A stretch of 64,000 nt of DNA. It comes from Colwellia psychrerythraea. GTDB taxonomy: Bacteria > Pseudomonadota > Gammaproteobacteria > Enterobacterales > Alteromonadaceae. The notes beneath the pieces are model-generated. The model was given only the letters and a program-made list of their open reading frames with translations, did not search any database and was not told the origin of the DNA. The position numbers and the translations under genes were made by a program. Below are positions 39,355 to 64,000 of this stretch, in pieces; within the stretch, counting starts at the first letter, position 1, and every line of letters begins with the position of its first letter. The stretch covers positions 62,001-126,000 of the forward strand of contig MAAF01000040.1 in NCBI GenBank assembly GCA_002163005.1, written 5' to 3'.

Positions 39355-39415
39355 ACTTATTGCCTTTCTTACGTTTTATACCAATCAAACTAATTTATTG
39401 ATCACTTAGTGACAA

Positions 39416-41563: not shown

Positions 41564-41628
41564 CGATTTGCTCTTATATGAGACAAAATACATACCTTAA
41601 TCCTATTCTGACTACTGCAACAATGCTT

Positions 41629-41700: not shown

Positions 41701-44040
41701 TTAGAATTGATAATTAACACTTACGCTGATAGCGCGTGGTCTTGAAGGACCGACAAAATATTCATCAAATTCCGTCTCAGGATATAGCTCACCTAACACT
41801 TCATCCGCTTCACCGTAGGTACCAAAAGTATCAAAATGGCGATCAAAAAGGTTATCCACTTTAGCAGACAATCGTAGTTGCTCATTGATTTGATAATTGA
41901 GATAAATATTGGTAACCGCATAAGCCGATATTTTTTTGTTTTCATTGGCTTCATCACCGCGATAATAAGATGAAGAGGCATATAAAAATTCTGTACCGAC
42001 ATTTATCTCATCATTAAATTGCCAATTAGCATGGAGCTTAAACTGATGTTTAGGTTGTCCGGGGATCTCGTCACCTGGGCTGACTTCTCTATTGGGTCCC
42101 AATGGGTTAACTGGGCTAAAAGAAACAAAGGGAGATTCAAACGTTGCTTTTAATAAATTATAGCTAGCACCAAAATCAACGTCACTCAGCTGCATCGAAA
42201 ATGCCAGCTCTACCCCTTGACGTTGCGTTTTATCAAGATTGATAAAGTAACCTTCGTTGGATTTATCACCCGCCTGTTGAAAGATAATATCTTGATAACT
42301 CAAGGTTGAAAATACCGTCGCCACTGCTGAAAAATTTGTAATATCGTAATGTAAAGATGCTTCCGTTGTTTTTGCAACCACCTGCTCAAGCGGAGGATCG
42401 GCAACAAAAGCATTGGGTAATTTGCAAGGGTCTTCTTCATCCGCACAACTCAATTCAGCAGGGCTTGGTGTGCGGGAAGACTCACTGTAACTTACTTTAA
42501 CCGCGTATTCTTGGTTCAGTTGGTAGTTAACAGAAATCGCAGGATTAAAACGATGAAAAATGTGTTCACCGTTAAGTGACCCTTTACCACTTTCTATTTG
42601 ATCTTTCATACTCACATCGGCGTAATTGTATCGACCTGCGAGATTAAGCGTAAAATTTCCGCCAAATGTCATAGCATTTAAAAAATAAAGGTAATGCTGT
42701 TGAGTTTTCACCTTTAAGCTTACACGGGAGTCGCTATCATATAAGCCAATGCCCGTGACTGAACGATCATCGTTGATAGTGTCATTATGCAGTATTGCAA
42801 ATTCGGTATTACTGGTGAAACTAATTTGAGCTTGATCTGCACCCAAGCCAAAAATAAATTCATTATCGAACGAATAAAGAGAGTCGGGAGCGTCAAAATG
42901 GCTTAATCGAACCCATTGCAGTGCTGCGCCATAACTTTCACTATCAGTGAAGCCGGTATTAAAGGTGCCATCAACCTCATCTGCATCAATATCGCTAAGC
43001 TGACTTAACCAGACATCCTCATCATAACCAACAAAATGAACTCGCTCTAAAGAGTCATCTTTACCCTCTTCACACAAGCTATAAAGCGTACCAGACTCAC
43101 ACTCTTCATAATCGCTGTCATCACCATTTATGCTATTAATTTCGTTTTGGCGATAATAAATATTTGCCTGCCATGACGTTTGCTTGTTGATAACATTATC
43201 AGACTTAATACTAAACTGTTGAAAACTGGTCTCAGTTTTATCAGGCTGTGTATAAATAGCATTTCTACCCGCTAATTCAGCAAGCTGTTCAGGTATAGCG
43301 CCATTACCAAGCATTTCGTTATTATTAGCGGAAAAAGTAAAGTCGATGGTACGAACGTCACTGGCATAAGAGAGGGTTGCAAGCATCTGCTGCAATTCAC
43401 TTTCAGAATGATCTCGCCAGCCATCTTCTTGATAATTATTAGCGACAAAATAATAGCCCCAATTCCCCTGATTACCGCCTGATTGCACAGTAAATTGCTG
43501 CTGCCCAAAGTTGCCAAAGCGAGCCTCAAGTTCATTTTGAGTGTAGCTAAAGCCATTCTTGGTCTGTAGTGCTAGCGCACCACCTAAGGTATTTTGACCA
43601 AATGCAGGGTTAGAGCCAGAATAAAGGGCTACTGTATCAAGTGCCGCAAGCGGAATAAGGTCCCAATTAACCGTATCACCAAACGGTTCATTAAATCGTA
43701 CTCCATTTAAATAAACAGAGATCCCCTGCGGCAACCCCAATAATGGTGAAGCAGTAAAACCTCTGTATTGCACATCAGGCTGAAACGGATTATTTTGCAC
43801 GTCATTTATGTGCAAACTTACTAGCTGATTCTTCATATGTTCAGCTAAAGAAATGGCTTGTGATTGAGATAGCGCTTGCGCATTGATAGTTTGAACACTA
43901 CCAAAAGCACTGTATTCACTTACAGAGTTAGTCGACAATGGTGTTTGGCCATAGATATTGATTTTTTCAACATCATCAATATTTTGCCCTAACACGGGTA
44001 AAGTAATAAACAAATAAATACAGGCTGAGACGCGCTTCAT
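41701..44040 (-). CDS. TonB-dependent receptor, LutH-like
   Basis: This receptor has 779 residues from the second ATG (44040), which has AAGGA six bases upstream. Signal peptide to about residue 19. The plug carries NNPFQPDVQYRGFTASPLLG, PQGISVYLNGVRFNEPFGDT and NPAFGQNTLGGALALQTKNG, a pattern I associate with the receptors next to XoxF/lanthanide genes (LutH type), including the VNWDLIPL segment. Acidic loops (DDSDYEECESG, DEDVWLSQLSDIDADEVDG) could bind multivalent cations. The barrel ends AISVSVNYQF. A perfect operator lies 142 bases upstream. Lanthanide-chelate uptake is a reasoned inference, not proven. Confidence 0.88.
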   Translation of the reverse strand: MKRVSACIYLFITLPVLGQNIDDVEKINIYGQTPLSTNSVSEYSAFGSVQTINAQALSQSQAISLAEHMKNQLVSLHINDVQNNPFQPDVQYRGFTASPLLGLPQGISVYLNGVRFNEPFGDTVNWDLIPLAALDTVALYSGSNPAFGQNTLGGALALQTKNGFSYTQNELEARFGNFGQQQFTVQSGGNQGNWGYYFVANNYQEDGWRDHSESELQQMLATLSYASDVRTIDFTFSANNNEMLGNGAIPEQLAELAGRNAIYTQPDKTETSFQQFSIKSDNVINKQTSWQANIYYRQNEINSINGDDSDYEECESGTLYSLCEEGKDDSLERVHFVGYDEDVWLSQLSDIDADEVDGTFNTGFTDSESYGAALQWVRLSHFDAPDSLYSFDNEFIFGLGADQAQISFTSNTEFAILHNDTINDDRSVTGIGLYDSDSRVSLKVKTQQHYLYFLNAMTFGGNFTLNLAGRYNYADVSMKDQIESGKGSLNGEHIFHRFNPAISVNYQLNQEYAVKVSYSESSRTPSPAELSCADEEDPCKLPNAFVADPPLEQVVAKTTEASLHYDITNFSAVATVFSTLSYQDIIFQQAGDKSNEGYFINLDKTQRQGVELAFSMQLSDVDFGASYNLLKATFESPFVSFSPVNPLGPNREVSPGDEIPGQPKHQFKLHANWQFNDEINVGTEFLYASSSYYRGDEANENKKISAYAVTNIYLNYQINEQLRLSAKVDNLFDRHFDTFGTYGEADEVLGELYPETEFDEYFVGPSRPRAISVSVNYQF

Positions 44041-44181
44041 AAACATTCCTTAGATATTAATTAACGATGATGATGGTGCACTCTTTATTAAAAATCAATC
44101 AGAGAAAAGTCAGTTACAAGGTAAAGAACATATAATAAAGCCATATATTACAATTAGATAAAAAAATACATTTAATCGTTA

Positions 44182-45844: not shown

Positions 45845-46046
45845 ACAAAGCGTTCATACATGCATTCTGTTCATTATTTAACCGCATAATAAATAGAGTA
45901 AAAAAATAACAGGTATATAATTTGCTTGCCTACAGCTTATGCCATAAGGATTAAAAGTAGTTTATGGCTAAGTATACTTTTTAACAATAACGTAAGGATA
46001 ATCTCTTTTGAATTTATATATTGGGATTGTTAATAAGGAATCAAAT

Positions 46047-46784
46047 ATGCGAACACTTACAAAATTTACTAGTACGTTGTTTCTTGCACTTGCTAGCTTT
46101 TCCTATACAGCTCAAGCATCATTGATTTTTGAGTTAGATACAAACTTTAGTAATGCAACTACACCATTAGGAAATGCGCCATGGTTGCGAGCAACTTTTG
46201 AAACTCAAAATGCCACCACGGTTAGGTTAACAATGGACAGTTTACTGCAAGACTCGAGTGAATTTGTTGATGGTGGTCAGGGGTGGTTTTTTAATCTCAA
46301 CCCTATTTTTGACGCTGCTAACCTGGGCTTCAATCAGGTTAGTTTTTCCGGTATCTCAGCAGCTGGAGCTGGAGGTGTAGTAATTAATACGGGAATTGAT
46401 TTTACCAATGCTGACGGCGGTGGCCTCTATGATATTCAGTTTGATCTAGTTGGTGCACCACCAGCAGATCGATTCGGTATGGGTTCCCAATTAGTGTACG
46501 ATATAACACTAGCTGGTGGTTTAACCGAGTTAGACTTTGATTTTTCCAGTAGCCCACAAGGTGGTAATGGTATTTGGAAGTCCGCTGCCCATGTTCAAGG
46601 TATTACGGATGCTAACGGCCGACCTGAGTTGAGTTCTTATATAGGAGCTGATAGTGGAATAATTTGTAATGATCCTGATGGCTGTGATGGTGGTGGTCCT
46701 CCGACAGAGGTTCCTGAACCCAGTGTGTTGTTTCTACTTGGTAGCGCTTTACTTGCCTTAAGCTTACGTAAAAAAACGTATTAA
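46047..46784 (+). CDS. PEP-CTERM sorted surface protein
   Basis: This 245-residue secreted protein starts at ATG 46047 (AAGGAA upstream); the tracked start 13 codons earlier lacks support. A signal peptide (residues 1-24, ends AQA) is followed by an Asn/Gly/Asp-rich beta-type domain with no Cys apart from a late pair (IICNDPDGCDGG). The C-terminus has the exosortase signal: VPEPS, a hydrophobic helix (VLFLLGSALLALSL) and a basic tail (RKKTY). Such proteins are processed by an exosortase and tied to exopolysaccharide. No exosortase is in the window. The adjacent convergent gene encodes a c-di-GMP-controlled subtilase, which also fits a biofilm theme. Confidence 0.88.
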   Translation: MRTLTKFTSTLFLALASFSYTAQASLIFELDTNFSNATTPLGNAPWLRATFETQNATTVRLTMDSLLQDSSEFVDGGQGWFFNLNPIFDAANLGFNQVSFSGISAAGAGGVVINTGIDFTNADGGGLYDIQFDLVGAPPADRFGMGSQLVYDITLAGGLTELDFDFSSSPQGGNGIWKSAAHVQGITDANGRPELSSYIGADSGIICNDPDGCDGGGPPTEVPEPSVLFLLGSALLALSLRKKTY

Positions 46785-46878: not shown

Positions 46879-48699
46879 TTATTTACGGCCTTTTTTACGT
46901 GCCTGTACATTGACTTGAATGCTGGTCTGGTTTTGGTTGCCCGCAGCATCAAATGCCTTTGTTACAATGGTATGGTATCCGTTAGCCACTTTGCGGGTAT
47001 TCCAACTATAAGACAGTGTTGATTCAGTCGTTTGCGTTTTTAACTGGCCGTCAATATACAATTCAATTTTAGTCACCGCAGTGTTGTCTGTTGCACTCAC
47101 TTTAATCGCTTGATTACCGCTTATGCTACTGCCATTAACGAGATTAGTAATACTCACACTCGGTGCTATGGTGTCTGCAACATCAGCGATATTGTCTATT
47201 GTCAGCCAATAAGTTGAAGAGTTACCTTGATTACCTGTTGCATCATACGCTTGAGCGGTGAAAGCTACGCTACCATCAGCAATATTATTACTGTTAAAGT
47301 TAGCGCTATAAGGCGCGACAGTATCAGTACCAATTAATACACCATTGGCATATAGGCTAACAGAGCTCACAGCCATATTGTCTTGTGCATTGGCAGTGAT
47401 ATTAAAGGAGCCTGTTTGAACACTATTTTCTGTTGGAGATGTTATTGCAACTGTTGGTGCTTGCTGATCGATAGTAGGTGTATTTACTACCATCGCAACC
47501 GCAGCCGCGGCATCAACTCTGCCATGACCATAATAGCTATTAAATACACCGCCATTTTTGGACTTATCTGCGCTAGCCTCTAAAATATTTTCAAGTTCAT
47601 CATTACTAAGATTTAGGTTAGCTGATTTTATTAGTGCTAATGTTGCTGCCGTTGCTGGGCTGGCAAAAGAAGTACCACTTACAGCACTATATCCACCACT
47701 TTTGGTCGTGGTCCAAATCCCTGACCCCGGTGCCGATACATCCACACAATTACCGTAATCTGACCAGCTGGTCTTATTATCTGCACTGTCTGTGGCTGAT
47801 ACTGTGATAATACTAGGATTATCTGTACAGTTTAAGTCTGCACCACCGTTACCTGCTGAAGCCACAACCAAGCCACCTTTATTACGCATGTATTGTGCCG
47901 CGTTGGTTACGCTGGAGCTGGTAGTTACACTGTAACTAATATTGGCAATGTCGGCGCCGTTATCTGCCGCCCAAGTTAGACCGTTGGCAACGTCACTCCA
48001 GTAAGCATAGCCATTACTTTGGTTGGTAATTCGAATCGGCATAATTGATGCATGCCAAGCGATAGAGGTTACGCCGTTATTATTATCACTTATTGCCGCT
48101 ACAACACCCGCAACCTTCGTGCCGTGACCATAGATGTCACTCGTTTCGTTGTTGCGACTAACACTGTTCCAACCAGCAACCATATTGGCTGATAAATCGG
48201 TATGGTTGCTGTTAACACCAGTATCTAGAATAGCAACCACTATGCCATTACCCTTTGCTGTTTCCCAAGCAGTAGGTAATTGCATTTTATTAAGGTGCCA
48301 AGCATTGTTGTAATATGTGTCGTTGGCTATAATTTCGCTTGGTTTAACGAGTAAATCGACCTCAGCAAATTCAATGTTTGGATTATTAGATAACGCTTTG
48401 ACAATTGCTTGTTCTGCATTTGCCGGTACATTGATGATGTGGGTGCGTAATTGATTAAGCTTACCTTTTGAGCTGGCTTTGTGCTTGCCTAGGATCTTTT
48501 GGAAGTTCTGCTCTGATAAGCCTGGTTGTGGTTGTACTAAAATTTGACCTTTTGCAAAAGCCGCAGAATGTTCAGGAGGATTCGCTATAGCAAAATTGCT
48601 GAAAGTTAATGGTAATAATAATGTGCCTAGTGCAAAACTTTTGCTTTGGCGTTTTATTAGTGAGCTGATTTCGATTTGATTGTTACTAACGTACTTCAT
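46879..48699 (-). CDS. secreted subtilisin-like serine protease (S8)
   Basis: This 606-residue protease starts at ATG 48699 (GTGGAG upstream). Signal peptide to about residue 39, then an I9-type propeptide/inhibitor (about 50-118) and an S8 catalytic domain (about 128-410). The triad is Asp159 (AILDTGVNSNH), His192 (YGHGTKVAGVVAA) and Ser344 (SGTSFASPA), with the oxyanion Asn in SAGNGG. Two C-terminal Ig-like domains (about 425-510 and 520-600; VSSVSLYANGVLIGT, VTKIELYIDGQLKTQ) may bind surface polymers. The chain ends in a basic tail (ARKKGRK). The long leader holds a c-di-GMP-I riboswitch. Confidence 0.93.
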   Translation of the reverse strand: MKYVSNNQIEISSLIKRQSKSFALGTLLLPLTFSNFAIANPPEHSAAFAKGQILVQPQPGLSEQNFQKILGKHKASSKGKLNQLRTHIINVPANAEQAIVKALSNNPNIEFAEVDLLVKPSEIIANDTYYNNAWHLNKMQLPTAWETAKGNGIVVAILDTGVNSNHTDLSANMVAGWNSVSRNNETSDIYGHGTKVAGVVAAISDNNNGVTSIAWHASIMPIRITNQSNGYAYWSDVANGLTWAADNGADIANISYSVTTSSSVTNAAQYMRNKGGLVVASAGNGGADLNCTDNPSIITVSATDSADNKTSWSDYGNCVDVSAPGSGIWTTTKSGGYSAVSGTSFASPATAATLALIKSANLNLSNDELENILEASADKSKNGGVFNSYYGHGRVDAAAAVAMVVNTPTIDQQAPTVAITSPTENSVQTGSFNITANAQDNMAVSSVSLYANGVLIGTDTVAPYSANFNSNNIADGSVAFTAQAYDATGNQGNSSTYWLTIDNIADVADTIAPSVSITNLVNGSSISGNQAIKVSATDNTAVTKIELYIDGQLKTQTTESTLSYSWNTRKVANGYHTIVTKAFDAAGNQNQTSIQVNVQARKKGRK

Positions 48700-48787
48700 T
48701 TTGTGACTCCACAATGTGTGAAGTCTACAGAAAACCTATTACTTCTTAGTGCCTGTCATTGCACATTATTATTGGCACAATAATGCT

Positions 48788-49139: not shown

Positions 49140-49922
49140 CTATTTACGCCCATGTAGGGGTTTAAAACTCATCAGAGCAAAAAACGATGCAATGCTTGTT
49201 GCGATTAACACTGTCGTCAGAGCAAGGATGTTCATTTGTCCGTAAAGCGCAAACCGTAATAACTCAACACAAGCGGTAAAAGGATTGAACTGACAAAGCC
49301 AATATAACCACAAACTCGCCTCTTGCATTTTCCACAACGGATATAAGGCACTGGAGAGAAAGAACATGGGGAAAATAACAAAGTTCATCACACCAGCAAA
49401 GTTTTCCAATTGCTTGATTAGATTAGACAACATCAGCCCTAACGCGCCGAGAAAAAAGGCAATTAAAAAAATTGCTGGTATTGAGCTAACATAACCCATA
49501 AGCGGAATATCAACGTCAACTAGCTGCGCAAAGAGTAAAAAAATTACGACTTGTAAAAGTGACAGCAACGCACTGGCAATCAACTTACAACATAATAAAA
49601 AAGGTCGAGGTAGCGGACTCATCAATAAAACTTTCATGCTACCCATTTCACGATCGTAAACCATAGAAAGCGAACTTTGCATGCCATTAAATAAAATGAT
49701 CATGCAGCAAAGTCCTGGGGTAATATATTGCTGATAAGTAATATAGGTGCCGTAAGGCTCCATAATAGAAACACCCAGCGCCGCTCTAAAACCCGCAGCG
49801 AAAACAACCAACCAAAGTAGCGGTCTAACTAACGCACTTAATAAACGCGATCGTTGTTGGAAAAAACGTAAAACTTCACGCTTAACAATGCCATTAAAAC
49901 AATAAAGATAACGATTGTTCAT
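49140..49922 (-). CDS. pedC: PQQ-associated ABC-2 permease (PedC type)
   Basis: This 260-residue ABC-2 family permease has six helices and the segments GIVKREVLRFFQQRSRLLSA near the start and MSPLPRPFLLCCKL in the middle loop. It belongs to the permease group linked to quinoprotein alcohol dehydrogenase loci (PedC in Pseudomonas, LutF-like in methylotrophs). It overlaps the ATPase gene by one base. In P. putida the pedA1A2BC set is tied to growth with scarce lanthanides, so a role in lanthanide handling is plausible here. ABC-2 permeases are usually exporters, so direction of transport is uncertain. Confidence 0.85.
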   Translation of the reverse strand: MNNRYLYCFNGIVKREVLRFFQQRSRLLSALVRPLLWLVVFAAGFRAALGVSIMEPYGTYITYQQYITPGLCCMIILFNGMQSSLSMVYDREMGSMKVLLMSPLPRPFLLCCKLIASALLSLLQVVIFLLFAQLVDVDIPLMGYVSSIPAIFLIAFFLGALGLMLSNLIKQLENFAGVMNFVIFPMFFLSSALYPLWKMQEASLWLYWLCQFNPFTACVELLRFALYGQMNILALTTVLIATSIASFFALMSFKPLHGRK

Positions 49923-50650
49923 CAGCTGATCTCCACGTTAGCCGTTAACGTGCGATAAAGCTGGTATACGTCGGCGACATTATGCTCTTTACATAATTCA
50001 CCACTGATGCCCTGTGCTTGAATTTTCCCTTCATCGATAATAATTAATTGATCGTCTGCTGCTATTTCATCGATTAAATGTGTTGCCCATAACACACAAA
50101 TGCCTAATTGTTGGCTAAGCGAGCCAACGTATTCGGTGATCATTTTTCTGCTATCAATATCTAAACCAACCGTTGCCTCATCGAGTAACAATACTTTGGG
50201 TTGATGAATTAACGCTCGGGCAATTTCGACCCGGCGGCGATGCCCACCATTTAATGATCTTACTTTATCATTGAGTCGCTGCGTCAACTGAAGTTGAGAC
50301 AAAATATCGCTGATATTTTCTAGTGCTTGTGATGATGAAATACCATGTAGCGCCGCATAATAAGTTAAGTTTTGCTTAACGGACAAATCTAAATCTAGCG
50401 TGCTTTGCTGAAAGACCACGCCCATCGACTGCATGATTTTCGATCTCTCATGATTTAAGTCATAACCATTGATCTTAATATCCCCTGATGCCGCCTGATA
50501 AAGACCCGTTAGCATTGAGAATAAGGTGCTTTTTCCTGCACCATTAGGACCCAGTAACACATTAAAACCGCTTTTAATGCTTAGGCTTAAACCATCAATT
50601 GCCGCCTTTTTACCATAATGAAAAGTGAGTTCGTTGGTAATAATACTCAT
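49922..50650 (-). CDS. PQQ-associated ABC transporter ATPase (PedB type)
   Basis: This 242-residue ATPase starts at ATG 50650, overlapping the beta-propeller stop by ATGA; the tracked start is nine codons earlier. Walker A is GPNGAGKST and Walker B KVLLLDEATVGLD. The signature is LNGGHRRRVEIARAL in place of LSGGQ, a variation typical of the PQQ-linked ATPase family. It pairs with the downstream ABC-2 permease. Confidence 0.88.
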   Translation of the reverse strand: MSIITNELTFHYGKKAAIDGLSLSIKSGFNVLLGPNGAGKSTLFSMLTGLYQAASGDIKINGYDLNHERSKIMQSMGVVFQQSTLDLDLSVKQNLTYYAALHGISSSQALENISDILSQLQLTQRLNDKVRSLNGGHRRRVEIARALIHQPKVLLLDEATVGLDIDSRKMITEYVGSLSQQLGICVLWATHLIDEIAADDQLIIIDEGKIQAQGISGELCKEHNVADVYQLYRTLTANVEIS

Positions 50651-51651
50651 GGCACATTTCGTATCACTACGCCCCACGGATAACGTCCTACTTTAATTGA
50701 TTTTGTTACTTTCATGCGTTTAACATCAATCACTGACACATCACCACTAATACCATTAGTCGTTAATAGCTGACTTTGATCATGATTAAAAGCAAGCTGC
50801 CACACTCTACGCCCAACTAATAAATATTTCTCAACCGTCATTTTTTGACGATCAATAACGGCCACATGATTTGCGGGGCCTAATGCCACGAACGCATATC
50901 GTCCATCCTGTGTTAATTCGATGCCAACAGGTTGAACACGGTCATGATGAATACCTCGTATATCAAAGGTAAATTCCTTAATAATTTTTTGCGTGGCAAC
51001 ATCAAGTATCACCACAGTGCCGCCAATTTCAGAGCTGACCCATAAATATTTATTATCGTCGGTAAATTTAGCTGACCTAGGTCGTGCACTCACTAAAGTA
51101 TTAGCAAAGTTTTCATGGGTTTTGGTGTCAATCCAATGCACCATATTGGTCGTTTCCGAGGTTACCACGACAATTTTTCCATCGGGACTTACCGCTAGTC
51201 CTTCAGGTTCAACCCCTACATCTATCTGCGCGATAACAGTAGCAGAGTCAATATCAATCACCGTAAGCAAGGCATCATCTTCATTAGAGGTATAAATAAT
51301 TTTGCCATTGGGATGTAATGCAATAGTTTCAGGATCTTCACCAGAAGGTAGCTCGCCGATGATCTGCTCTGTTTCTACATCAAGTATTTGAATCCTATCT
51401 GACTCGCTCGCACAAATATAAGCAAGCGACTGTTCCTTATTGAGAATAATGCCTCGAGGTCGTTCACCTATCGAGATTGTTTTTATAACTTTATTGAGGC
51501 TTAAATCGATAACCGAAATATTGTCATCTTTTTCATTGGTGACATACGCAAATTCAGTGGCATAACCAGCGGTAGCGTTAAACAAAACGGCTACTACCGA
51601 TAATCTAAAAAATTTTCTAACCTTTTCTCTAAAATAAAGTGTCTTTTTCAT
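50647..51651 (-). CDS. PQQ-associated YVTN beta-propeller protein
   Basis: This 334-residue periplasmic protein has a signal peptide (to about residue 31) and about seven YVTN-type blades, each with repeats such as AYVTNEKDDNISVIDLSLNK, AYICASESDRIQILDVE and IYTSNEDDALLTVIDID. It is the beta-propeller protein of PQQ-dependent catabolism loci (PedA2-like position). Acidic DDN and EDD turns could bind cations. It overlaps the ATPase gene by four bases and follows the binding-protein gene by 109 bases. Confidence 0.87.
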   Translation of the reverse strand: MKKTLYFREKVRKFFRLSVVAVLFNATAGYATEFAYVTNEKDDNISVIDLSLNKVIKTISIGERPRGIILNKEQSLAYICASESDRIQILDVETEQIIGELPSGEDPETIALHPNGKIIYTSNEDDALLTVIDIDSATVIAQIDVGVEPEGLAVSPDGKIVVVTSETTNMVHWIDTKTHENFANTLVSARPRSAKFTDDNKYLWVSSEIGGTVVILDVATQKIIKEFTFDIRGIHHDRVQPVGIELTQDGRYAFVALGPANHVAVIDRQKMTVEKYLLVGRRVWQLAFNHDQSQLLTTNGISGDVSVIDVKRMKVTKSIKVGRYPWGVVIRNVP

Positions 51652-51760: not shown

Positions 51761-52987
51761 TTACCGTGATAATTCGCATTGAGATTCTTGCGCATCAAAA
51801 CCAAGCGTATCAAGTTCAGTTATTGGATGAAGCATGCCAGGCTGTGGTGACTGCGATACCAAAGCGTGGGGATGCACCAAAGCCAGCGGCATTCTTAACT
51901 GTCGGCTCCAAGCACGAAAACTAAGCTTACGCCCCTTGTACGCTGCCAATTCAAAATCCACCGAGTTAATATATTCGATGAGCTTGTTACTAGAGTTTGA
52001 ATGAAGTTTATGCACCGATTGCGCAACACTGCGCACGGCAAGATAACCAGCAAAGTCTATTTCATTCATTTTTCTATCAGCCATTTCCATAAAACGATTT
52101 TGCAGTTGAGTAGCGCCCCACTGTTCTATCGCACTATGCCATGCCAAAGCTTCCAAACCAGCCGAGCCTATAACAGGCCGAGGTAAATAAGTATTAAAGG
52201 GTAAAAATTCAGCAAAAGCTTTCGACTTGTCAGCAACATAAACAACATCATAATCTTTTACGGTTTGAGTAAACAAAGGAATTTCTTGTTGTGCACTACG
52301 CCTAAGATCGGTATTAAAATCCCACTGTTTTTCATCGATAATTTTCAAACCAAAACGTTTCGCCGCCCGTTTAAACGATTTGGCTAGCTGAAGATCTTCG
52401 GCTTTACTACCCTGTATTAATAATACTTTATTCATCCGACGATAAAGCAACCACTGAGCAAGGGCATCAGATTTCATGGCATCACTGGGTATGGTATGAA
52501 ATACAGAAGCTAAACACTGGGCATTGCGTAATTCATCAGCAGATTCACTGACATTAAACAATAACACCGGCTTGTTTTTGGCCCAACGATCTACTTGCAC
52601 CAGTTGTGTTAATGGCGCTTGAAGAATAAAAATGCGTCGGCCCTGTTGATATTCTTCTTCTAGATATTCTAAAAACTGCGCTGTTTTCGTCGCAACAAAA
52701 TAGTTTAATGTAAAGTGTTGCTGTAAAAATTTCCCAGTAGTATTAGAGTCATTGATCGCAAGCTTAGCCCCCATATAGCCACTGTCTTCTGGCTTTTTAA
52801 AAAGAGTAGATACGCCGGGAGCTTGTTGCGGCGCCAACTTCACATAACTGATATCAAGGGTGATTGGACTTGATATTGCCTCAGTACTTGAAATTGCATT
52901 AGTACAATAAAAACAAAAGAGCCATACACCGCTAGCTACACTTTTCACTAGATACTTCTTAAACCTTACTCTTGTCACGATAAACAT
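51761..52987 (-). CDS. PQQ-associated periplasmic ABC binding protein
   Basis: This 408-residue protein has a signal peptide and a two-lobe fold related to branched-chain amino-acid binding proteins, but of the PQQ-linked subfamily (ITLDISYVKLAPQQAPG near the start, GAKLAINDSNTTGKFL, NKVLLIQGSKAEDLQLAKSF, VVYVADKSKAFAEF). It begins the pedA1A2BC-like operon. The divergent cytochrome c gene shares its upstream region, where a perfect operator lies 165 bases from this start. The ligand may be a metal or metal complex; inferred from the P. putida and Methylobacterium counterparts. Confidence 0.85.
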   Translation of the reverse strand: MFIVTRVRFKKYLVKSVASGVWLFCFYCTNAISSTEAISSPITLDISYVKLAPQQAPGVSTLFKKPEDSGYMGAKLAINDSNTTGKFLQQHFTLNYFVATKTAQFLEYLEEEYQQGRRIFILQAPLTQLVQVDRWAKNKPVLLFNVSESADELRNAQCLASVFHTIPSDAMKSDALAQWLLYRRMNKVLLIQGSKAEDLQLAKSFKRAAKRFGLKIIDEKQWDFNTDLRRSAQQEIPLFTQTVKDYDVVYVADKSKAFAEFLPFNTYLPRPVIGSAGLEALAWHSAIEQWGATQLQNRFMEMADRKMNEIDFAGYLAVRSVAQSVHKLHSNSSNKLIEYINSVDFELAAYKGRKLSFRAWSRQLRMPLALVHPHALVSQSPQPGMLHPITELDTLGFDAQESQCELSR

Positions 52988-53273: not shown

Positions 53274-53714
53274 ATGATAAAACTTAACTTAGGCCGCAGC
53301 CATTTAATTGCATTCATATCAATATGTTCATTTGGCGTAGCGGCTCACGGCCCTGTGACACCACAAGCAATAAACACCTCAACATTGCCGACTTTAGGCG
53401 AAGAATGGGAAGACACTAACCCTTACCGCACAAAAGACGGTGAAGTAATGACAGAAATTTTACGCGTTGGTGCCTCAGCCTATAACCAAAATTGCGCTCG
53501 CTGTCATGGTTTAGGCGGAATATCTGGCGGTATTGCTCCTGATTTACGTCAATTACCAGCAGATTTTGATGGCGATGAGTGGTTTATTTATCGTGTACAA
53601 AATGGCGCGGTACGTAATGGTGCTGTTTACATGCCGAAAATGACCGAACATTTAAACCAAGAAGCACTTTGGTCTATTCGTACTTGGTTAGAGTCAGTCA
53701 GTGATGAAGAATAA
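53274..53714 (+). CDS. pedF: cytochrome c550, PedF type
   Basis: This 146-residue periplasmic mono-haem cytochrome has a signal peptide ending at VAAHG and a mature start (HGPVTPQAINTSTLPTLGEE) very close to PedF. The haem motif is CARCHGLGG (about 69-77) and the axial Met is in YMPKMTEHL. It accepts electrons from the PQQ alcohol dehydrogenase. It overlaps the MoxJ-like gene by 11 bases, giving the order cytochrome, binding protein, dehydrogenase, as in xoxGJF-type clusters with the dehydrogenase last. Confidence 0.92.
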   Translation: MIKLNLGRSHLIAFISICSFGVAAHGPVTPQAINTSTLPTLGEEWEDTNPYRTKDGEVMTEILRVGASAYNQNCARCHGLGGISGGIAPDLRQLPADFDGDEWFIYRVQNGAVRNGAVYMPKMTEHLNQEALWSIRTWLESVSDEE

Positions 53715-54591
53715 ATTTTATTATCTATTTTTGTGGTTAAGTTGTTGTAGCCTATTTTGCTCAACAACTTTTGCGCGATCTTATGATGATATTATTGAAA
53801 GCAATGAGATCACCGTTGCCGTTTATAGCGATTTCATCCCCTTTTCATACAGAGAAAACGGGCAAGCAAAAGGCATTGATATTGAGGTCGCAAAACATAT
53901 TGCCAAACAGTTAGGCGTGACACTTCGTTTCAGGTGGGTAACCGCTGATGAAAATGTTGAGGATGACTTGCGCAATAATTTATGGAAAGGACACTTCCTT
54001 AAACGCAGTGTTGCAGACTTAATGCTTAGAGTTCCCTACGATAAAGAATATTCTGAGCTGCGTGACGATATTGGTGAACGGGTACATGAACAGGTACACA
54101 TGTTCGCTCCCTACCATACTGAGTCATGGAAAATCGTTTTCAATACTAAAAAAATTGACGATGTTAGCACCATGGCAGTCTTTCAATATCATGACATTGG
54201 TGTCGAAGTAGACTCCATTCCACAATTTTACCTGCTATCTGTCTTCAATGGTCGAATGCGCAACAAAACCAAACAGTTCCCTTCGTTAGCCTTAGCTATT
54301 TCAGCAATGTCTGAACAGAAGATTGATGCCGTCATGGGACTTCGCAGTCAGGTGAGTCATTACCAACATCAACTTAACTCCCCTACTTACCAATTAGCAA
54401 CGAATGCCTTTCCGATGTTAGGAAAACAACAATGGGATATTGGCATGGCGGTAAAAAGTGACTATCGCCAATTAGGTTATGCCATTGCTGATATTGTCGA
54501 GGCTATGATAAACCAAGGACAAATGAAGAAAATATTTAAACAGTACAGCGCTGTTTACCAAATTCCAAACCTGTATTCAGTCAGTGAATAA
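53704..54591 (+). CDS. MoxJ/XoxJ-like periplasmic binding protein
   Basis: This protein has 295 residues from ATG 53704 (GTG 53701 is possible). The signal peptide is followed by a family-3 solute-binding fold: SNEITVAVYSDFIPFSYREN, GQAKGIDIEVAKHIAKQLGV and DIGMAVKSDYRQLGYAIADI. It matches the MoxJ/XoxJ group that accompanies quinoprotein dehydrogenases and is thought to help their maturation, possibly by interacting with the apo-enzyme, rather than to import a solute. It overlaps the cytochrome gene and precedes the dehydrogenase by 276 bases with its own operator. Confidence 0.87.
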   Translation: MKNKFYYLFLWLSCCSLFCSTTFARSYDDIIESNEITVAVYSDFIPFSYRENGQAKGIDIEVAKHIAKQLGVTLRFRWVTADENVEDDLRNNLWKGHFLKRSVADLMLRVPYDKEYSELRDDIGERVHEQVHMFAPYHTESWKIVFNTKKIDDVSTMAVFQYHDIGVEVDSIPQFYLLSVFNGRMRNKTKQFPSLALAISAMSEQKIDAVMGLRSQVSHYQHQLNSPTYQLATNAFPMLGKQQWDIGMAVKSDYRQLGYAIADIVEAMINQGQMKKIFKQYSAVYQIPNLYSVSE

Positions 54592-54867: not shown

Positions 54868-56631
54868 ATGATAACAACATGTAAAACAAAGGTATTGTCA
54901 TTATCGATGGCAATTTCTTTAGCGTTAACCGGCATAGCAAATGCTGATGTAACCGATAAAGATATTGCCAATGACCAAATGACAACTGATGATGTTGTGT
55001 CCTATGGACTTGGTCTAAGAGGACAACGTTACAGCCCTCTTGATAAAATAAATATCGACACAGTTAAAGAAATGCGTCCAGTCTGGTCGTTCTCATTAGG
55101 TGGGGAAAAACAGCGTGGTCAAGAATCTCAGCCTATGGTCAAAGATGGCGTCATGTATATTACTGGCTCATACTCTCGAGTGTATGCTATAGACGTGCAT
55201 ACAGGTGACGAACTTTGGCAATATGATGCAAGATTACCTGATGGTATTATGCCTTGTTGTGATGTTATCAACCGTGGTGCAGCACTATACGGCGACCTAG
55301 TTATTTTTGCTACGCTTGATGCAAAACTAGTCGCGCTTAATAAAGACACAGGCAAAGTAGTTTGGAAAAAGAAAGTAGAAGATTATAAAGCCGGTTATTC
55401 AATTACAGCTGCTCCTATTATTGTTAAAGGTAAAGTCATCACAGGTGTTGCCGGTGGTGAATTTGGTGTAGTAGGTAAAGTAAGAGCTTATGATGCTACC
55501 AATGGCAAACTAGTTTGGGAACGCCCAACGGTTGAAGGCCACATGGGCTACATCTGGAAAAATGGCAAAAAAGTTGATAATGGTATTTCTGGTGGCAAAC
55601 CAGGAGAAACATGGCCAGCAGAACTTTGGAAGTCAGGTGGAGCTGCGCCTTGGTTAGGCGGTACTTATGATGCCGATGTTGATTTATTATTCTTTGGTAC
55701 CGGTAACCCTGCACCATGGAACTCTCATTTACGTCCAGGTGATAACCTTTTCTCCTCATCACGTTTAGCTATTGATCCTGATACAGGTAAAATTGTTTGG
55801 CATTTCCAAACCACGCCACACGACGGTTGGGATTTTGATGGTGTTAACGAACTAGTTTCTTTCGATTACAAACAAAATGGTAAAACCGTCAAAGCTGCGG
55901 CAACGGCTGACAGAAACGGTTTCTTCTATGTACTTAATCGTGAAAATGGTGATTTCATTCGAGGTTTCCCATTTGTTGATAAACAAACATGGGCTTCAGG
56001 ACTTGATAAGAACGGTCGCCCTATTTATATCGATAGTAATAGACCATCGGACCCAAGCAAGTCAAAAGATGGCAATAAAGGTAGCACAGTCATTGCAGCC
56101 CCTGCTTTCTTAGGTGGTAAAAACTGGATGCCAATGGCATACAGTCAAGATACTGAATTGTTCTATGTACCATCAAACGAATGGGAAATGGATATCTGGA
56201 ACGAACCTACCGCTTATAAAAAAGGTGCGGCTTATCTAGGTGCTGGCTTTACCATTAAAGCGATTAATAAAGACTATATTGGTGTATTAAAAGCAATCGA
56301 CCCTAAAACAGGTAAAGTTGTTTGGCGCTATAATAACTATGCTCCATTATGGGGTGGTGTATTGGCCACTGCAGGTAACCTAGTATTTACCGGGAACCCT
56401 GAAGGATACTTATTAGGTCTTGACGCTAAGACGGGTGAAGTTAAATATAAATTCAATACCGGCTCAGGCATTGTTGGTTCACCGATTACCTGGGAAATGG
56501 ATGGCGAACAATACCTTTCAGTTTTATCTGGTTGGGGTGGTGCTGTACCTTTATGGGGCGGTGATGTTGCCAAGCGTATCAAGCACTTAAACCAAGGTGG
56601 TAGTGTGTGGACGTTTAAACTACCTAAGTAA
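54868..56631 (+). CDS. PQQ-dependent alcohol dehydrogenase, lanthanide-type active site
   Basis: This 587-residue periplasmic quinoprotein oxidises primary alcohols and passes electrons to cytochrome c550. Signal peptide ends near residue 26 (ANA). The eight-bladed propeller shows repeated AxDxxTGxxxW tags ([24 protein letters not shown]). Active-site features: the vicinal Cys130-Cys131 disulfide (MPCCD), metal ligands Glu198 (GGEFG) and Asn280 (GTGNPAPW), catalytic Asp322 and a second Asp324 in [11 protein letters not shown]. Asp at the +2 position is found in lanthanide enzymes (XoxF Asp301, PedH Asp325), whereas calcium enzymes have Ala or Ser. So PedH/XoxF-like metal use is predicted. There is no cytochrome domain fused. 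A strong terminator follows. Confidence 0.93.
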
Positions 56632-56920: not shown

Positions 56921-58441
56921 ATGATCTATGCAAACCCAGGCAGTGAAGGTTCTGTCGTTTCTTTTAAACCTAAATATGAAAACTTTATCGGCGGTAAGTG
57001 GGTTGCTCCAGTAAAAGGAAATTACTTTACTAACACCACCCCAGTAACTGGCGAAGCAATTTGTGAAATACCACGTTCAAGCGCTGAAGATATTGAGTTA
57101 GCTCTTGATGCTGCTCATGCTGCAAAAACAGCATGGGGAAAAACCTCAGTACAAGATCGCTCAAACATCTTATTAAAAATTGCTGACCGTATTGAAGCAA
57201 ACCTTGAGTTAATAGCAGTAGCTGAAACTTGGGATAATGGTAAACCAGTACGTGAAACACTCAATGCTGACATCCCGTTAACGGTTGATCATTTCCGCTA
57301 TTATGCTGGCTGTATCCGTGCTCAAGAAGGTACTCTTTCACAAATAGATGACGATACTGTTGCTTATCACTTCCATGAGCCTATCGGTGTTGTTGGTCAA
57401 ATAATTCCGTGGAACTTTCCTATGCTGATGGCTGCATGGAAATTAGCACCAGCACTTGCTGCGGGTAACTGTATTATCCTTAAACCAGCTGAGCAAACAC
57501 CGGCAAGTATTCTTGTATTTATGGAGTTGATTGCTGACTTATTACCTGATGGCGTATTAAACATTGTTAATGGTTACGGTAAAGAAGCCGGTGAAGCATT
57601 AGCGACTAGTACACGTATTGGCAAAATAGCCTTTACCGGTTCAACACCTGTTGGCCAACATATATTGAAATGTGCTGCTGAAAATTTAATCCCTTCTACG
57701 GTAGAGCTTGGTGGTAAATCACCAAACATTTTCTTTAGTGATATCACTCAATTTGAAGATGACTACCTTGATAAATGTGCTGAAGGTTTTGCTTTAGGTT
57801 TCTTTAACCAAGGTGAAGTATGTACATGTCCTTCTCGTGCACTAGTACAAGAAGATATTTTTGATGTGTTCATGGAAAAAGTACTTGAGAAAACCAGAAA
57901 TATCGTCCGTGGTAACCCACTTGATGTTAATACCATGGTTGGTGCACAAGCGTCTAAAGAACAATATGATAAAATCCAAGGTTACCTACAAATAGGTAGA
58001 GATGAAGGTGCAACGGTACTTTCTGGTGGTAGCGCTGAAAGTTTAGACGGCCCACTAGGAACGGGTTACTACATCCAACCAACGATTTTAAAAGGTAAAA
58101 ACTCAATGCGAGTTTTCCAAGAAGAAATTTTTGGACCTGTTATTTCTGTTACTACTTTTAAAGATGCTGAAGAAGCCTTACAAATTGCTAACGATACTGC
58201 TTTTGGTTTAGGTGCGGGTGTTTGGACACGTGATGCTAACCTTGCTCATCGTATGGGCCGTGGTATTGAATCTGGACGAGTGTGGACTAACTGTTACCAT
58301 TTATATCCTGCTCATGCTGCATTTGGTGGTTATAAGAAATCAGGTATTGGTCGTGAAACACACAAAATGATGCTTGATCATTATCAGCAAACTAAGAATT
58401 TATTAGTAAGCTATAGCACAAGTCCGTTAGGTTTCTTTTAA
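56921..58441 (+). CDS. exaC: NAD-dependent aldehyde dehydrogenase, ExaC/AldB type
   Basis: This 506-residue cytosolic enzyme oxidises the aldehyde made by the periplasmic dehydrogenase to the acid. Catalytic Cys301 ([10 protein letters not shown]), general base Glu262 (VELGGKSPN), and Asn164 (IIPWNFP) are in place. The N-terminus ([19 protein letters not shown]) and the C-terminal [15 protein letters not shown] are diagnostic of the ExaC/AldB acetaldehyde dehydrogenase group. Transcribed alone between two terminators, with a perfect operator upstream. Confidence 0.94.
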
Positions 58442-58568: not shown

Positions 58569-60746
58569 ATGACGATTTATTTGGGTGTTAACATGCCTTC
58601 TACACAATTAAAAAATCTCAAAATATGGCTTATCCTTAGCCTACTTTTAATGTTAACAACCTCCTTTTATTCTGTTGCTTTTAATACAACGACTCATGCC
58701 AATGTCACCGCAATTTCAGACGAAATAGCACAACTTTTTCCTAGTGCAACACGTGTAGGCCCTATCGATAAAAAAATTGCCGTAACCCCTGTTTATCAAC
58801 TGAATGAACTATTGGGATATGTTTTTGAATCTGATGATTTTGTCAATTTCATTGGTTTTTCTGGACAAACAATTAACCTGTTAATAGGTATTGATACCCA
58901 AGGCGTTTTTACCGGTTTAAAAATACTCAATCATAATGAACCGATTTTTTTGCACGGCTTAGGCGAACAGCCTATGTTTAAATTTATTAAACAATATCAA
59001 GGGCATTCAATTAAAGAGCGATTTATTGTTAACGCTCGCTCTAAATCGTCTGTTGATGCTACCTATATTGACGGCGTCACGCGCGCAACAATATCAGTAC
59101 TGGTAATCAACGACACCATTACAGCTTCAGCACTTAAAGTCGCACGTGAAAGACTCTCCGGCTTTGTTGCGCCATCACAAACCAGCATCAATCCTGACTA
59201 TTATCAAACACTCAATTTTGAAGAACTTATAAACAAAAATTTCATTAAACATTGGCAGCTTACCCGTGAGCAAGCAATCGCGTTGACCAAAACATCACCG
59301 ACAAATTTAGTGGATGAAATTAACCAAGTTACTGAAGAGGGAGATGAGTTTATCGACTTGTATTTTGCCTTCGTCAATATCCCTATCATTGGTAAAAATT
59401 TATTAGGTGAACAAGAATACCAGCGTTTGCTCGATAGTTTAAAACCCGGCGAACACGCGTTAATGATGTTTAGTGACGGTAAATATCATTTTGTTAGTGA
59501 AGACTTTACCCCACAAACAGTGCCTAATCGTTTAAGTGCACAGCAAGCGACTTTGCCTGTTGATATTCGTGATATCGACTTTTACAGCTTTTACGATCCT
59601 TCGTTTTCGCTCACCGTCCCCGACTTTAATGAAATTAAGGTTTTTAGAATAAAGTCTCAGTCGGGTTTTGAATTAAATAAAGAATTTTCTTTATCGTTAA
59701 TGCTGAGTTACAACAAGTCGTTCTTATCGAAGCAACAACACAGTTTTACTATCAATAACACCTTACCAGACAGTTTATTTATTCATAAAGAACCCGAAAT
59801 TAACCCTGAAGAAAATCGACCTTTGTGGCTAAAAATTTGGATAAGCCGTAGCACGGATATCATTATACTTGGCATTTACCTTATCTTTTTAGTTTGGCTA
59901 TTTATCAAACAAGAAACACTCGCCAAAAATGCTAGAACCACCCACAAAATACGCTTCGCCTCATTAACCTTTGTCATTATTTTTATAGGCTTTTATGCGC
60001 AAGGCCAATTATCAGTGGTCAATATTTACACCTTGTTCTTATCACTCTGGCAGGGTTTTAATATTGATGTATTCCTGCTTGATCCAATCATTTTTATTTT
60101 GTGGATCTTTGTCTTTATTAGTCTTTTTCTTTGGGGTAGAGGTTTGTTCTGTGGTTGGTTATGTCCTTTTGGCGCATTACAAGAATTTGCCGCGTTAGTG
60201 GCAAGTAAACTCAAAATAAAACAAATTAAAATAAAACCTCAACACCATAAGGCTGCGCAAAAAATAAAATATATCGTGCTAATTTTACTGGTTGGTAGTT
60301 CATTTTATTCACTTACCCTTGCAGAGCAGTTGGCTGAAATTGAACCCTTTAAAACCAGTATCACGCTCAATTTCGTTCGTTATTGGCCGTTTGTCTTGTA
60401 TGTAGTATTACTGCTTGCTCTTAGCTTAAAGATTCACAAAGTTTACTGTCGTTATTTGTGCCCGTTAGGTGCAGGACTTGCGGTTATTGGCCGATACCCT
60501 CTTTTCAAATGGCTAACACGCCGTCAAGAGTGTGGTACACCCTGTCAACTTTGTCGTAATAAAAAGTGTGGTATTGATGCCATCAATAAAGACGGTTCTA
60601 TTGACTATGGTGAGTGTATTCAATGCTTGGAATGCTTAGTTACCATCAAAGACCCAAAAGAGTGTGTCGTAGATAAGTATTCGAAAAAAAGAAAAGCAGT
60701 GGTCGTGGTAACACCGAACACTGATTTTATCAATAACCTCAGTTGA
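58569..60746 (+). CDS. NosR/NirI-like FMN-binding polyferredoxin membrane protein
   Basis: This 725-residue protein has a first membrane helix (about 15-35), a periplasmic FMN-binding domain (about 70-200; the covalent flavin site is in DGVTRATIS), further periplasmic sequence to about 420, about five membrane helices, two CxxxCP motifs (CGWLCPFG, CRYLCPLG) in cytoplasmic loops, and a C-terminal pair of 4Fe-4S sites (CGTPCQLCRNKKCG, CIQCLECLV). It is a NosR/NirI-like electron-transfer or regulatory protein. No nos or nir genes are present, so here it probably feeds or senses electrons for the alcohol system. ATG 58569 lacks a clear ribosome site; ATG 58593 is an alternative. Confidence 0.85.
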   Translation: MTIYLGVNMPSTQLKNLKIWLILSLLLMLTTSFYSVAFNTTTHANVTAISDEIAQLFPSATRVGPIDKKIAVTPVYQLNELLGYVFESDDFVNFIGFSGQTINLLIGIDTQGVFTGLKILNHNEPIFLHGLGEQPMFKFIKQYQGHSIKERFIVNARSKSSVDATYIDGVTRATISVLVINDTITASALKVARERLSGFVAPSQTSINPDYYQTLNFEELINKNFIKHWQLTREQAIALTKTSPTNLVDEINQVTEEGDEFIDLYFAFVNIPIIGKNLLGEQEYQRLLDSLKPGEHALMMFSDGKYHFVSEDFTPQTVPNRLSAQQATLPVDIRDIDFYSFYDPSFSLTVPDFNEIKVFRIKSQSGFELNKEFSLSLMLSYNKSFLSKQQHSFTINNTLPDSLFIHKEPEINPEENRPLWLKIWISRSTDIIILGIYLIFLVWLFIKQETLAKNARTTHKIRFASLTFVIIFIGFYAQGQLSVVNIYTLFLSLWQGFNIDVFLLDPIIFILWIFVFISLFLWGRGLFCGWLCPFGALQEFAALVASKLKIKQIKIKPQHHKAAQKIKYIVLILLVGSSFYSLTLAEQLAEIEPFKTSITLNFVRYWPFVLYVVLLLALSLKIHKVYCRYLCPLGAGLAVIGRYPLFKWLTRRQECGTPCQLCRNKKCGIDAINKDGSIDYGECIQCLECLVTIKDPKECVVDKYSKKRKAVVVVTPNTDFINNLS

Positions 60747-60969: not shown

Positions 60970-62118
60970 ATGAGTACAATTAAAACAATTACCGCGGTCA
61001 GTAATGCGACTGATCCCTTCCTTGCAAGCCAAGAATTGTACCAACAACTTAATCAAGACAACATCTGCTTTGTGCTGTTTTATTGCTCCTCAACTTATGC
61101 GCTCGAAACACTTGCAAAAACGATGGAAGATACCTTCAAAGAAACTAAAATTGTTGGTTGTACTACGGCGGGAGAAGTAACACAGCAAGGTTACGAACAA
61201 CACTCTATTGTTGCCATAGGCTTTTCTAGTGACTACTTTGCCATCAGTGCTAAACTTATCGAGTCGATGGAAAAGTTCGATACTATCAATGCACAATCAA
61301 CAATCAATGAGTTAGTAGAAGATTGTCAGTCAAAAGATTTAACCGCAATTAAAAACAACAGTTTTTTACTCACCTTACTCGATGGCCTTTCCTCAAACGA
61401 AGAACAATTCCTAGTCACGTTAAACTCAGCAACTCGAGGCATCCCCCATTTTGGCGGCTCTGCTGGAGACGATATTAACTTAGCGAAAACGCATGTGTAT
61501 TATCAAGGTAATTTTTATCAAAATGCCGCTATTGTGATTATGGTAAACACCCTTTTATCTTTCGAGGTTTTTAACTGTCATCATATAGCACTGCCGACAG
61601 AAAAATTAGTGGTAACGGCGGCAGATGCTGATAGTAGAACGGTCTATGAATTGAATGCTGAGCCTGCTGCGCTTGAGTATGCAAAGTTATTAAATATGGA
61701 TTTAAAGGATTTAAGTCCTGAAGTTTTTTCCCTCAATCCGTTGGCAGTAAAAGTCGGTGGCCAATATTATATTCGTTCAATACAAAAAGTGAATGAAGCT
61801 GATTTAAGTCTAACATTCTACTGCGCGGTAGATGTTGGCATTGTGCTCACTGCGGTAGAAATGGGTGACATCTTTGATCCAGTAATTCAAAAATTAGATG
61901 AAATTTCACACCGTTACGGCAAACCTGAGCTAGTACTCGCTTGTGATTGCTTTTTAAGACGCTTAGAAATCGAACAAAAAGGCTTAGAGAATGAAGTACG
62001 AAAATTAAACAATAAGTACAACATTGCTGGATTTAATACCTATGGTGAACACATTAATGGCACGCATTTAAATCAAACCTTTACCGGTGTTTACATTGCT
62101 GGAGGCATTAATGAGTAA
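60970..62118 (+). CDS. FIST-domain sensory protein
   Basis: This 382-residue soluble protein has a FIST_N domain (about 25-225; TKIVGCTTAGEVTQQGYEQH, LLTLLDGLSSNEEQF, GGSAGDDINL) and a FIST_C domain (about 230-365; ending FNTYGEHINGTHLNQTFTGV). FIST domains are thought to sense small ligands. The gene overlaps the sensor-kinase gene by eight bases, the same pairing as next to ercS' in the Pseudomonas aeruginosa exa locus, so it probably supplies the input to that kinase. Confidence 0.9.
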   Translation: MSTIKTITAVSNATDPFLASQELYQQLNQDNICFVLFYCSSTYALETLAKTMEDTFKETKIVGCTTAGEVTQQGYEQHSIVAIGFSSDYFAISAKLIESMEKFDTINAQSTINELVEDCQSKDLTAIKNNSFLLTLLDGLSSNEEQFLVTLNSATRGIPHFGGSAGDDINLAKTHVYYQGNFYQNAAIVIMVNTLLSFEVFNCHHIALPTEKLVVTAADADSRTVYELNAEPAALEYAKLLNMDLKDLSPEVFSLNPLAVKVGGQYYIRSIQKVNEADLSLTFYCAVDVGIVLTAVEMGDIFDPVIQKLDEISHRYGKPELVLACDCFLRRLEIEQKGLENEVRKLNNKYNIAGFNTYGEHINGTHLNQTFTGVYIAGGINE

Positions 62119-64000
62119 CCAAACATTAGAAGAAGAGCTGGCTCAGTTAAAGATTAAAAATATCAAGTTAAAAAAAATTAACAATGCCTTAATGCAACGT
62201 GTAGAAGACAGCGGTGAAAATCAATATGCGCCTTATACCGCCTTTGAACATTCGGTACACTTAGCTGAACAAGTTAGAGAAAAAACGCAAACATTAAATG
62301 AAACACTGGCAAAACTTGAGCGCAGTAATCACGCATTAAAACAAGCAAATGCTAAAGCTAATCTGTTCAAACAACGTTTTATTGATGCAATAGAAAGTAT
62401 TTCAGAAGCCTTTGTTTTACTCGACAGCAAAGGTCGAATTATTTTACAAAACAGCAATTTCGCCAACTTTTGGCTCGACTCTGGTTTACCCATTACAGAA
62501 GGTGTCAATCTCAAAGACTTAAAAGATTTAGCCAAAACCCGCGGTATTATTCAACGAGCATCTCCAGGTGATGCGTTTGCCAGCCCCGTATATCAATTAT
62601 CAGATGGTCGATGGTTTCAATTAAACGAACACCAAACCAGCGAAGGTGGTTGGGTAATGCTCTATACCGACATTACCGCGGTAAAAACGGCAGAAAGTGC
62701 CCGTTATGAACGAGGCATGGCGCAAAAGTCGCTGTTACTACAAAACTTGATTGATAACATTTCTCAAGGTGTAGTGTTGATTAGCAGTCATAACAAAATC
62801 GAAGTATGGAATACGCGTTTTGCCCAGATCAGTCAATTATCCCCTCACCTGTTACGGGGCACGCCCACCACTGATAATATGCAACATTTAACGGAACTCG
62901 ATTTAGCACAAAAATCAAGTACCAATAACTATTCTTACACCCAAACATTGATTAACGGAACCGTATTAGAAATAAAAAGTCACCGACTTAAAAATGGAAA
63001 AACAATTAAAACCTATAGCGATATTACCGAACGTCATCGCTACGCAGAATCATTAAGAAAAAGTGAAAGTTGGTTACGATTAATCACAGATAACGTACCC
63101 GCAATGATCGCTTATGTTGGTAAGGATCTAAAGTATCAGTTTACCAATCAAGTGTACGTTGACTGGTACGGTTGGCCTCAGGGTGGCCTTAATGGCTTAG
63201 AGTTAGAACAAAGTCGTGTCCATTCAAATTTTACTAAAATAAGACGTTATGTTGACCGCGCGTTGAAAGGTGAAAGTGTTAGTTTTACCATTGATGAAAA
63301 AAACAAATTTGGTGAATCGAGCTATTTATTAAAATCTTATGTGCCTAATCGCGATGTTAACGGCGATGTACTTGGATTTTTCGTACTCATTCGTGATATT
63401 ACCGAACGAAGAAAGAATGCCCTAGCTCTGCAAAAAGCCCATGACCAGCTGGAAGTTAGGGTACAAGAGCGAACCTTTCAATTACAAAGTTTAAATGACA
63501 AGCTGCAAGTGGAAGTAGAAGATCGCCGTCAAGCGCAATCTAATCTAGTCAAAGCAAAAAGCGAAGCAGAGTTTGCTAACATTTCAAAAACAAAATTTCT
63601 TGCCGCCGTGAGTCATGATTTATTACAACCATTAAATGCAGCACAATTGTTTACCAGCTCATTAATGGAGCGCCCTTTAGCAGATAACACTAAAAATCAG
63701 CTTAACTCGGTCGCTAATTCATTAGACGATTTAGAGAATTTAATATCTACACTGGTTGATATTTCAAAACTTGATGCTGGCGTGGTCAAAGCCGATAAAA
63801 GCTCGTTTAAATTGTCAGAATTACTCAACAACCTAGTGAGTGAGTACCAACAAATCAGTGGTCAATTTCAAGTGGAATTACACTATGTCAGTAGCGATGT
63901 TGTGGTAAATAGCGACAGTGTACTACTTGCCCGCATATTGCGTAATTTCCTATCCAACGCCTTTAGATATACTAATAACGGCAAAGTGTTACTTGGCTGT
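62111..64000 (+). CDS. PAS sensor histidine kinase, ErcS'/NahK-like (3' end outside window)
   Basis: This frame opens at ATG 62111 (MSNQTLEEELAQLKIKNIKL) and stays open to the window end, so it is absent from the ORF track. It has an N-terminal coiled coil (to about 85), PAS domains (about 95-200, 210-310, 315-440), a second coiled coil and the phospho-acceptor region AVSHDLLQPLNAAQLF (about 500-515), then the start of the ATPase domain (LLARILRNFLSNAFRYTNNG). The SHDLLQPL H-box is typical of NahK and ErcS' kinases; the missing end should hold the rest of the ATPase and probably a receiver. With the FIST protein and the ErbR-like regulator it completes an exa-type circuit. Confidence 0.9.
   Translation, partial: MSNQTLEEELAQLKIKNIKLKKINNALMQRVEDSGENQYAPYTAFEHSVHLAEQVREKTQTLNETLAKLERSNHALKQANAKANLFKQRFIDAIESISEAFVLLDSKGRIILQNSNFANFWLDSGLPITEGVNLKDLKDLAKTRGIIQRASPGDAFASPVYQLSDGRWFQLNEHQTSEGGWVMLYTDITAVKTAESARYERGMAQKSLLLQNLIDNISQGVVLISSHNKIEVWNTRFAQISQLSPHLLRGTPTTDNMQHLTELDLAQKSSTNNYSYTQTLINGTVLEIKSHRLKNGKTIKTYSDITERHRYAESLRKSESWLRLITDNVPAMIAYVGKDLKYQFTNQVYVDWYGWPQGGLNGLELEQSRVHSNFTKIRRYVDRALKGESVSFTIDEKNKFGESSYLLKSYVPNRDVNGDVLGFFVLIRDITERRKNALALQKAHDQLEVRVQERTFQLQSLNDKLQVEVEDRRQAQSNLVKAKSEAEFANISKTKFLAAVSHDLLQPLNAAQLFTSSLMERPLADNTKNQLNSVANSLDDLENLISTLVDISKLDAGVVKADKSSFKLSELLNNLVSEYQQISGQFQVELHYVSSDVVVNSDSVLLARILRNFLSNAFRYTNNGKVLLGC

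Follow-up and report, generated by a model that had tools for sequence, protein, structure and literature searches.

The main finding of this study is that the open reading frame at positions 54868-56631 (+) of the window, the 64,000-nucleotide stretch of the Colwellia psychrerythraea genome analysed here, very probably encodes a type 2b (PedH/ExaF) PQQ-dependent alcohol/aldehyde dehydrogenase of the periplasm that is orthologous to PedH and is predicted from its sequence to use an early lanthanide. The reading frame is intact, starts with ATG and specifies 587 amino acids with no internal stop. Its product matches TIGR03075, the NCBIfam model of the PQQ methanol/ethanol dehydrogenase domain, at 795 bits against a cut-off of 480, and is 98% identical to the protein of Colwellia demingiae, the nearest named relative. 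In the translation W321 begins the WDFD motif (codons 321-324, TGG GAT TTT GAT, at 55828-55839 (+)), just as the original prediction had read it, with Asp322 followed by Asp324. These two residues, together with Glu198 and Asn280 (precursor numbering), are the putative metal ligands, and an adjacent cysteine pair, Cys130-Cys131, is also present.

The original prediction considered the second aspartate to be diagnostic of lanthanide enzymes and proposed an alignment with characterised homologues. Our structure alignment gives the expected result, since position 324 is Asp in PedH (6zcv/6zcw) and XoxF (6dam, 6oc5), Ser in the Ca-dependent ExaA (1flg) and Ala in the MxaF-type methanol dehydrogenases (2ad6, 1g72, 4tqo, 5xm3), and is Thr in the quinohaemoprotein alcohol dehydrogenase (1kv9). 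Among 133 full-length homologues, from loci gathered partly by the pattern PHDGWDFD, which contains the motif itself, E198, N280 and D322 are invariant (133/133), while position 324 is D in 97, S in 32 and T in 4, exactly by subfamily: all PedH-type enzymes examined carry Asp, all ExaA-type enzymes Ser and the quinohaemoprotein type Thr. The ExaA-type paralogues with Ser are about 54% identical and often lie within the same loci as the PedH-type enzymes. A motif-free tblastn search of 399 genomes of the phylum likewise finds Asp in all PedH-type matches that were read out, these being the hits of roughly 60% identity and above. The pattern at position 324 is not due to chance. Across the superfamily as a whole the residue is only incompletely diagnostic, since membrane glucose dehydrogenases also carry D-x-D and are predicted to use lanthanides only facultatively (PMC11996626). 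At two loci, L108 (G019:C34) and L109 (G027:C40), a different PQQ-dependent alcohol dehydrogenase of about 36-39% identity has WDWDE at the metal site and is accompanied by a paralogue of the TonB receptor and by partial matches to pedA1; these enzymes possibly form another lanthanide clade.

The relationship to PedH rests on more than the motif. The window enzyme is 73% identical to PedH and 57% identical to the Ca-dependent ExaA, and a search of the sequences of solved structures places PedH on top (E-value 5e-298), with ExaA at 9e-203 and XoxF at 4e-106. A Foldseek search with an AlphaFold model also ranks PedH (6zcw) first. This model, built from a 17-sequence alignment with a mean pLDDT of 73.9, served for fold matching only; its pLDDT falls below 50 at residues 197-200 and 319-322, that is, at the metal site, so it is no test of coordination geometry. 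In a tree of 142 sequences the window enzyme belongs to a wider PedH-type clade (n=42, all Asp, support 1.0), and the ExaA-type enzymes form a clade of their own (n=10, all Ser, support 1.0); the narrower grouping of the window enzyme with PedH itself is poorly supported (0.39). PedH of Pseudomonas putida KT2440 (PP_2679) shares with the window enzyme the cysteine pair and the four metal ligands, in the identical string Glu/Asn/Asp/Asp. ExaA/PedE, a Ca-dependent ethanol dehydrogenase, has the fold, the PQQ site and the Glu/Asn/Asp ligands in common with it, but the last ligand is Ser. The lanthanide methanol dehydrogenase XoxF (4mae, 6dam, 6oc5) has the second Asp in the equivalent place, although it is only about 35% identical, acts on methanol and falls in a different clade. 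ExaF of Methylorubrum extorquens AM1, a lanthanide-dependent ethanol dehydrogenase, is also a type 2b enzyme in the classification of PMC11996626; its likeness to the window enzyme rests on this subfamily assignment, and its host, unlike Colwellia, is a methylotroph.

The genes around the dehydrogenase reproduce the ped/exa layout of pseudomonads (PMC12997753). All four genes of the PedA1A2BC lanthanide ABC importer adjoin it on the opposite strand, each above the cut-off of its NCBIfam model: pedC, the permease (49140-49922 (-); TIGR03861, 486 bits, cut-off 241); pedB, the ATPase (49922-50677 (-); TIGR03864, 356 bits, cut-off 302); pedA2, a PQQ-associated beta-propeller protein (50647-51651 (-); TIGR03866, 522 bits, cut-off 287); and pedA1, the substrate-binding protein (51761-52987 (-); TIGR03863, 506 bits, cut-off 414). 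They are followed by pedF, encoding cytochrome c550, the expected electron acceptor (53274-53714 (+); TIGR04494, 187 bits, above cut-off), and by a pedG-like gene for a periplasmic solute-binding protein (53701-54591 (+); SBP_bac_3), which adjoins pedH in 55 of 60 full loci. In Marinobacterium (L055, L061, L064) a TauA-like pair lies between pedG and pedH. Beyond the dehydrogenase are exaC/pedI, an acetaldehyde dehydrogenase gene for the next pathway step (56921-58441 (+); NF050026, 953 bits, cut-off 900); a gene for a NosR-like, polyferredoxin-type membrane protein with an FMN-binding domain (58569-60746 (+); FMN_bind, Fer4_5), found near pedH, after exaC, in 15 of the 60 full loci; nosP, encoding an NO-sensing FIST protein that is also a member of Pseudomonas ped/exa clusters (60970-62118 (+); NF041558, 565 bits, cut-off 450); and a hybrid histidine kinase gene of the nahK/ercS'/pedS1 type, which runs past the window end (62087-64000 (+); NF041832, 534 bits, cut-off 400, scored on locus L136). 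The PedH locus of P. putida has as common neighbours pedA1A2BC, pedF, pedG, the aldehyde dehydrogenase, NosP and the hybrid kinase.

In P. putida, PedA1A2BC is genetically needed for PedH-dependent growth at low (nanomolar) lanthanum, and without it about 100-fold more lanthanum is required (PMC6839425). A homologous ABC importer is found in the Lut system of M. extorquens (lutAEF, lutH) (PMC6839425). The original prediction explained the dedicated uptake genes by the scarcity of lanthanides in seawater. Scarcity is not the whole reason, because P. putida, a soil bacterium, has the same ABC importer; the feature that sets the Colwellia lineage apart from it is the linked TonB receptor discussed below.

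PedH orthology, the complete set of four ligands and the adjacent importer support the original prediction of lanthanide use and make it firmer than a single Asp could, so that we strongly infer lanthanide dependence of the window enzyme and regard it as well supported. Calcium does not support activity of PedH, whereas La, Ce, Pr, Nd and Sm do, and Gd and Tb give very low activity (PMC5487730). The four metals originally listed, La, Ce, Pr and Nd, are hence all used by PedH, but the list was too narrow in leaving out Sm. In the mechanism we propose, an early lanthanide (La to Sm) would be held by Glu198, Asn280, Asp322 and Asp324 together with PQQ, the metal acting as Lewis acid and Asp322 as catalytic base. 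The alcohol substrate would yield an aldehyde that passes to ExaC/PedI, and the electrons would be delivered to cytochrome c550 PedF. The Ln3+ would be imported via PedA1A2BC, the linked TonB receptor probably serving as its route across the outer membrane beforehand.

Two calcium-based readings of the enzyme have to be weighed against this. It could be facultative, possessing Asp324 and yet showing good activity with Ca2+, so that lanthanides are used only when available. Such a Ca-capable enzyme would be useful to a cell in which it is the sole PQQ-dependent alcohol dehydrogenase found in the genome, and Ca2+ is abundant in seawater, at about 10 mM; the D-x-D motif of the glucose dehydrogenases mentioned above, predicted to be facultative, points the same way (PMC11996626). 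However, PedH, 73% identical and with the same ligands, has no Ca activity (PMC5487730), a dedicated importer is kept beside the enzyme gene, and two relatives that do have a Ca route (G011, G015) keep a separate ExaA-type Ser enzyme for it. We therefore consider facultative use improbable. It is hardly credible that the window encodes an ordinary Ca-dependent ExaA-type ethanol dehydrogenase with an incidental second Asp. Such enzymes belong to a common superfamily in which the Glu/Asn/Asp triad is conserved, but the window enzyme lies inside the PedH clade and outside the ExaA clade with full support, and Ser occupies the position in all ExaA-type sequences.

The original prediction that this is the only alcohol dehydrogenase of the island holds, and can be extended, in that no other PQQ-dependent alcohol dehydrogenase, including a Ca-dependent PedE/ExaA partner, was found in the whole genome (94% complete assembly). 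P. putida, in contrast, has PedE as a partner of PedH. With no second such enzyme in the genome, a PedE/PedH switch like that of P. putida cannot work here in the same form. The genome also contains NAD-dependent ADH-family genes elsewhere, of the Fe-ADH and zinc types, and because of these, growth on ethanol alone would be a confounded test of the enzyme. PQQ synthesis genes are present twice, as complete pqqBCDE sets on contigs C87 (L137) and C116 (L138); the set on C87 has as neighbours a tryptophanase-like gene and the gene of a TonB receptor that shares 65% identity with that of the window. In 10 of 14 PedH-bearing Colwellia genomes sampled, no Ser- or Thr-type PQQ-dependent alcohol dehydrogenase occurs among the matches. 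In one genome (G009, locus L141, C1:903000-920000), frameshifts or stops interrupt pedH, which is split, as well as exaC and the TonB receptors, and pqqC was not found there. The entire system may have been lost, or the sequence may contain long-read indel errors; because the latter would look identical, we did not count this apparent decay as evidence.

Another finding concerns the TonB-dependent receptor at 41701-44046 (-), which we propose as a candidate LutH-type lanthanide receptor on the basis of its co-occurrence with PedH and its neighbourhood. In the window it lies 5 kb from pedC, and in several relatives (L139, L140, L145) it directly follows pedC. A subtilase with Ig-like domains (46879-48714 (-)) and a PEP-CTERM protein (46008-46784 (+)) separate the two in the window; this separation is not seen in several relatives, in which receptor and pedC are close neighbours. 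A second TonB receptor with an NMT1/TauA-type ABC transporter stands beside the first (36760-41593 (-)), and in several Colwellia (L140, L142) the ped island includes these genes. Across 39 genomes of the genus, the full-strength receptor is found in the same 15 as pedA1, and across 150 genomes of the family the 13 that carry the receptor are exactly the 13 that carry PedH. At the level of the phylum (399 genomes), 38 genomes have receptor homologues, all of them among the 96 with a PQQ-dependent alcohol dehydrogenase. When genomes were typed by their top PQQ-dependent alcohol dehydrogenase matches only, the receptor was found in 36 of the 68 that have a D-x-D enzyme and in 0 of the 24 that have the Thr type only (p = 9e-7, a value that ignores shared ancestry). 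In one distant genome (L233), receptor homologues of about 30% identity share one 20-kb stretch with pedABC-type genes and a D-x-D enzyme with the XoxF motif, as would be expected for a receptor of the LutH type. Most of the Pseudomonas, Vibrio and Marinobacterium genomes tested that carry PedH lack the receptor, which agrees with the published finding that close homologues of the known lanthanide TonB receptors are missing from P. putida (PMC6839425).

The linked transport genes, including this receptor, could instead serve the uptake of PQQ or iron, in which case the original idea of dedicated lanthanide uptake would fail even with a lanthanide-using enzyme. The receptor weakly resembles PqqU, a paralogue of it stands beside pqqBCDE in the same genome, and in one Colwellia genome (G003) no pqqC was found although both PedH and the receptor are encoded there. 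However, the score against PqqU is 111 bits, far under the cut-off of 1200, and we rejected that identity; the genome makes its own PQQ with two pqqBCDE sets, for which reason a PQQ scavenging role was set aside. The restriction of the receptor to genomes with D-x-D enzymes in the comparison with Thr-only genomes, and the genetic need for PedA1A2BC at low lanthanum (PMC6839425), also argue against such a role. We consider PQQ or iron uptake unlikely, albeit a reading of some weight, and retain lanthanide transport as the preferred function.

It has been documented from metagenomes that lanthanide enzymes are used in the sea, where PQQ dehydrogenases of the lanthanide type, among them those of type 2b, are known to be common and strongly transcribed (PMC11996626). 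For this reason the enzyme itself adds one instance to what is known. Our literature search found no paper treating lanthanide enzymes of Colwellia. The enzyme points to an apparently cultivable cold-marine lineage, many Colwellia records being strain genomes, with a lone lanthanide enzyme and no calcium back-up. Whether many marine Colwellia depend wholly on seawater lanthanides for PQQ-based alcohol oxidation, with the outer-membrane step performed by the receptor at 41701-44046, is in our judgement evenly balanced. The most useful addition of this study is a named candidate for the outer-membrane receptor, which is open to a gene-deletion test. If the proposal is true, this receptor would perform in Colwellia the outer-membrane step that has been left unresolved in pseudomonads.
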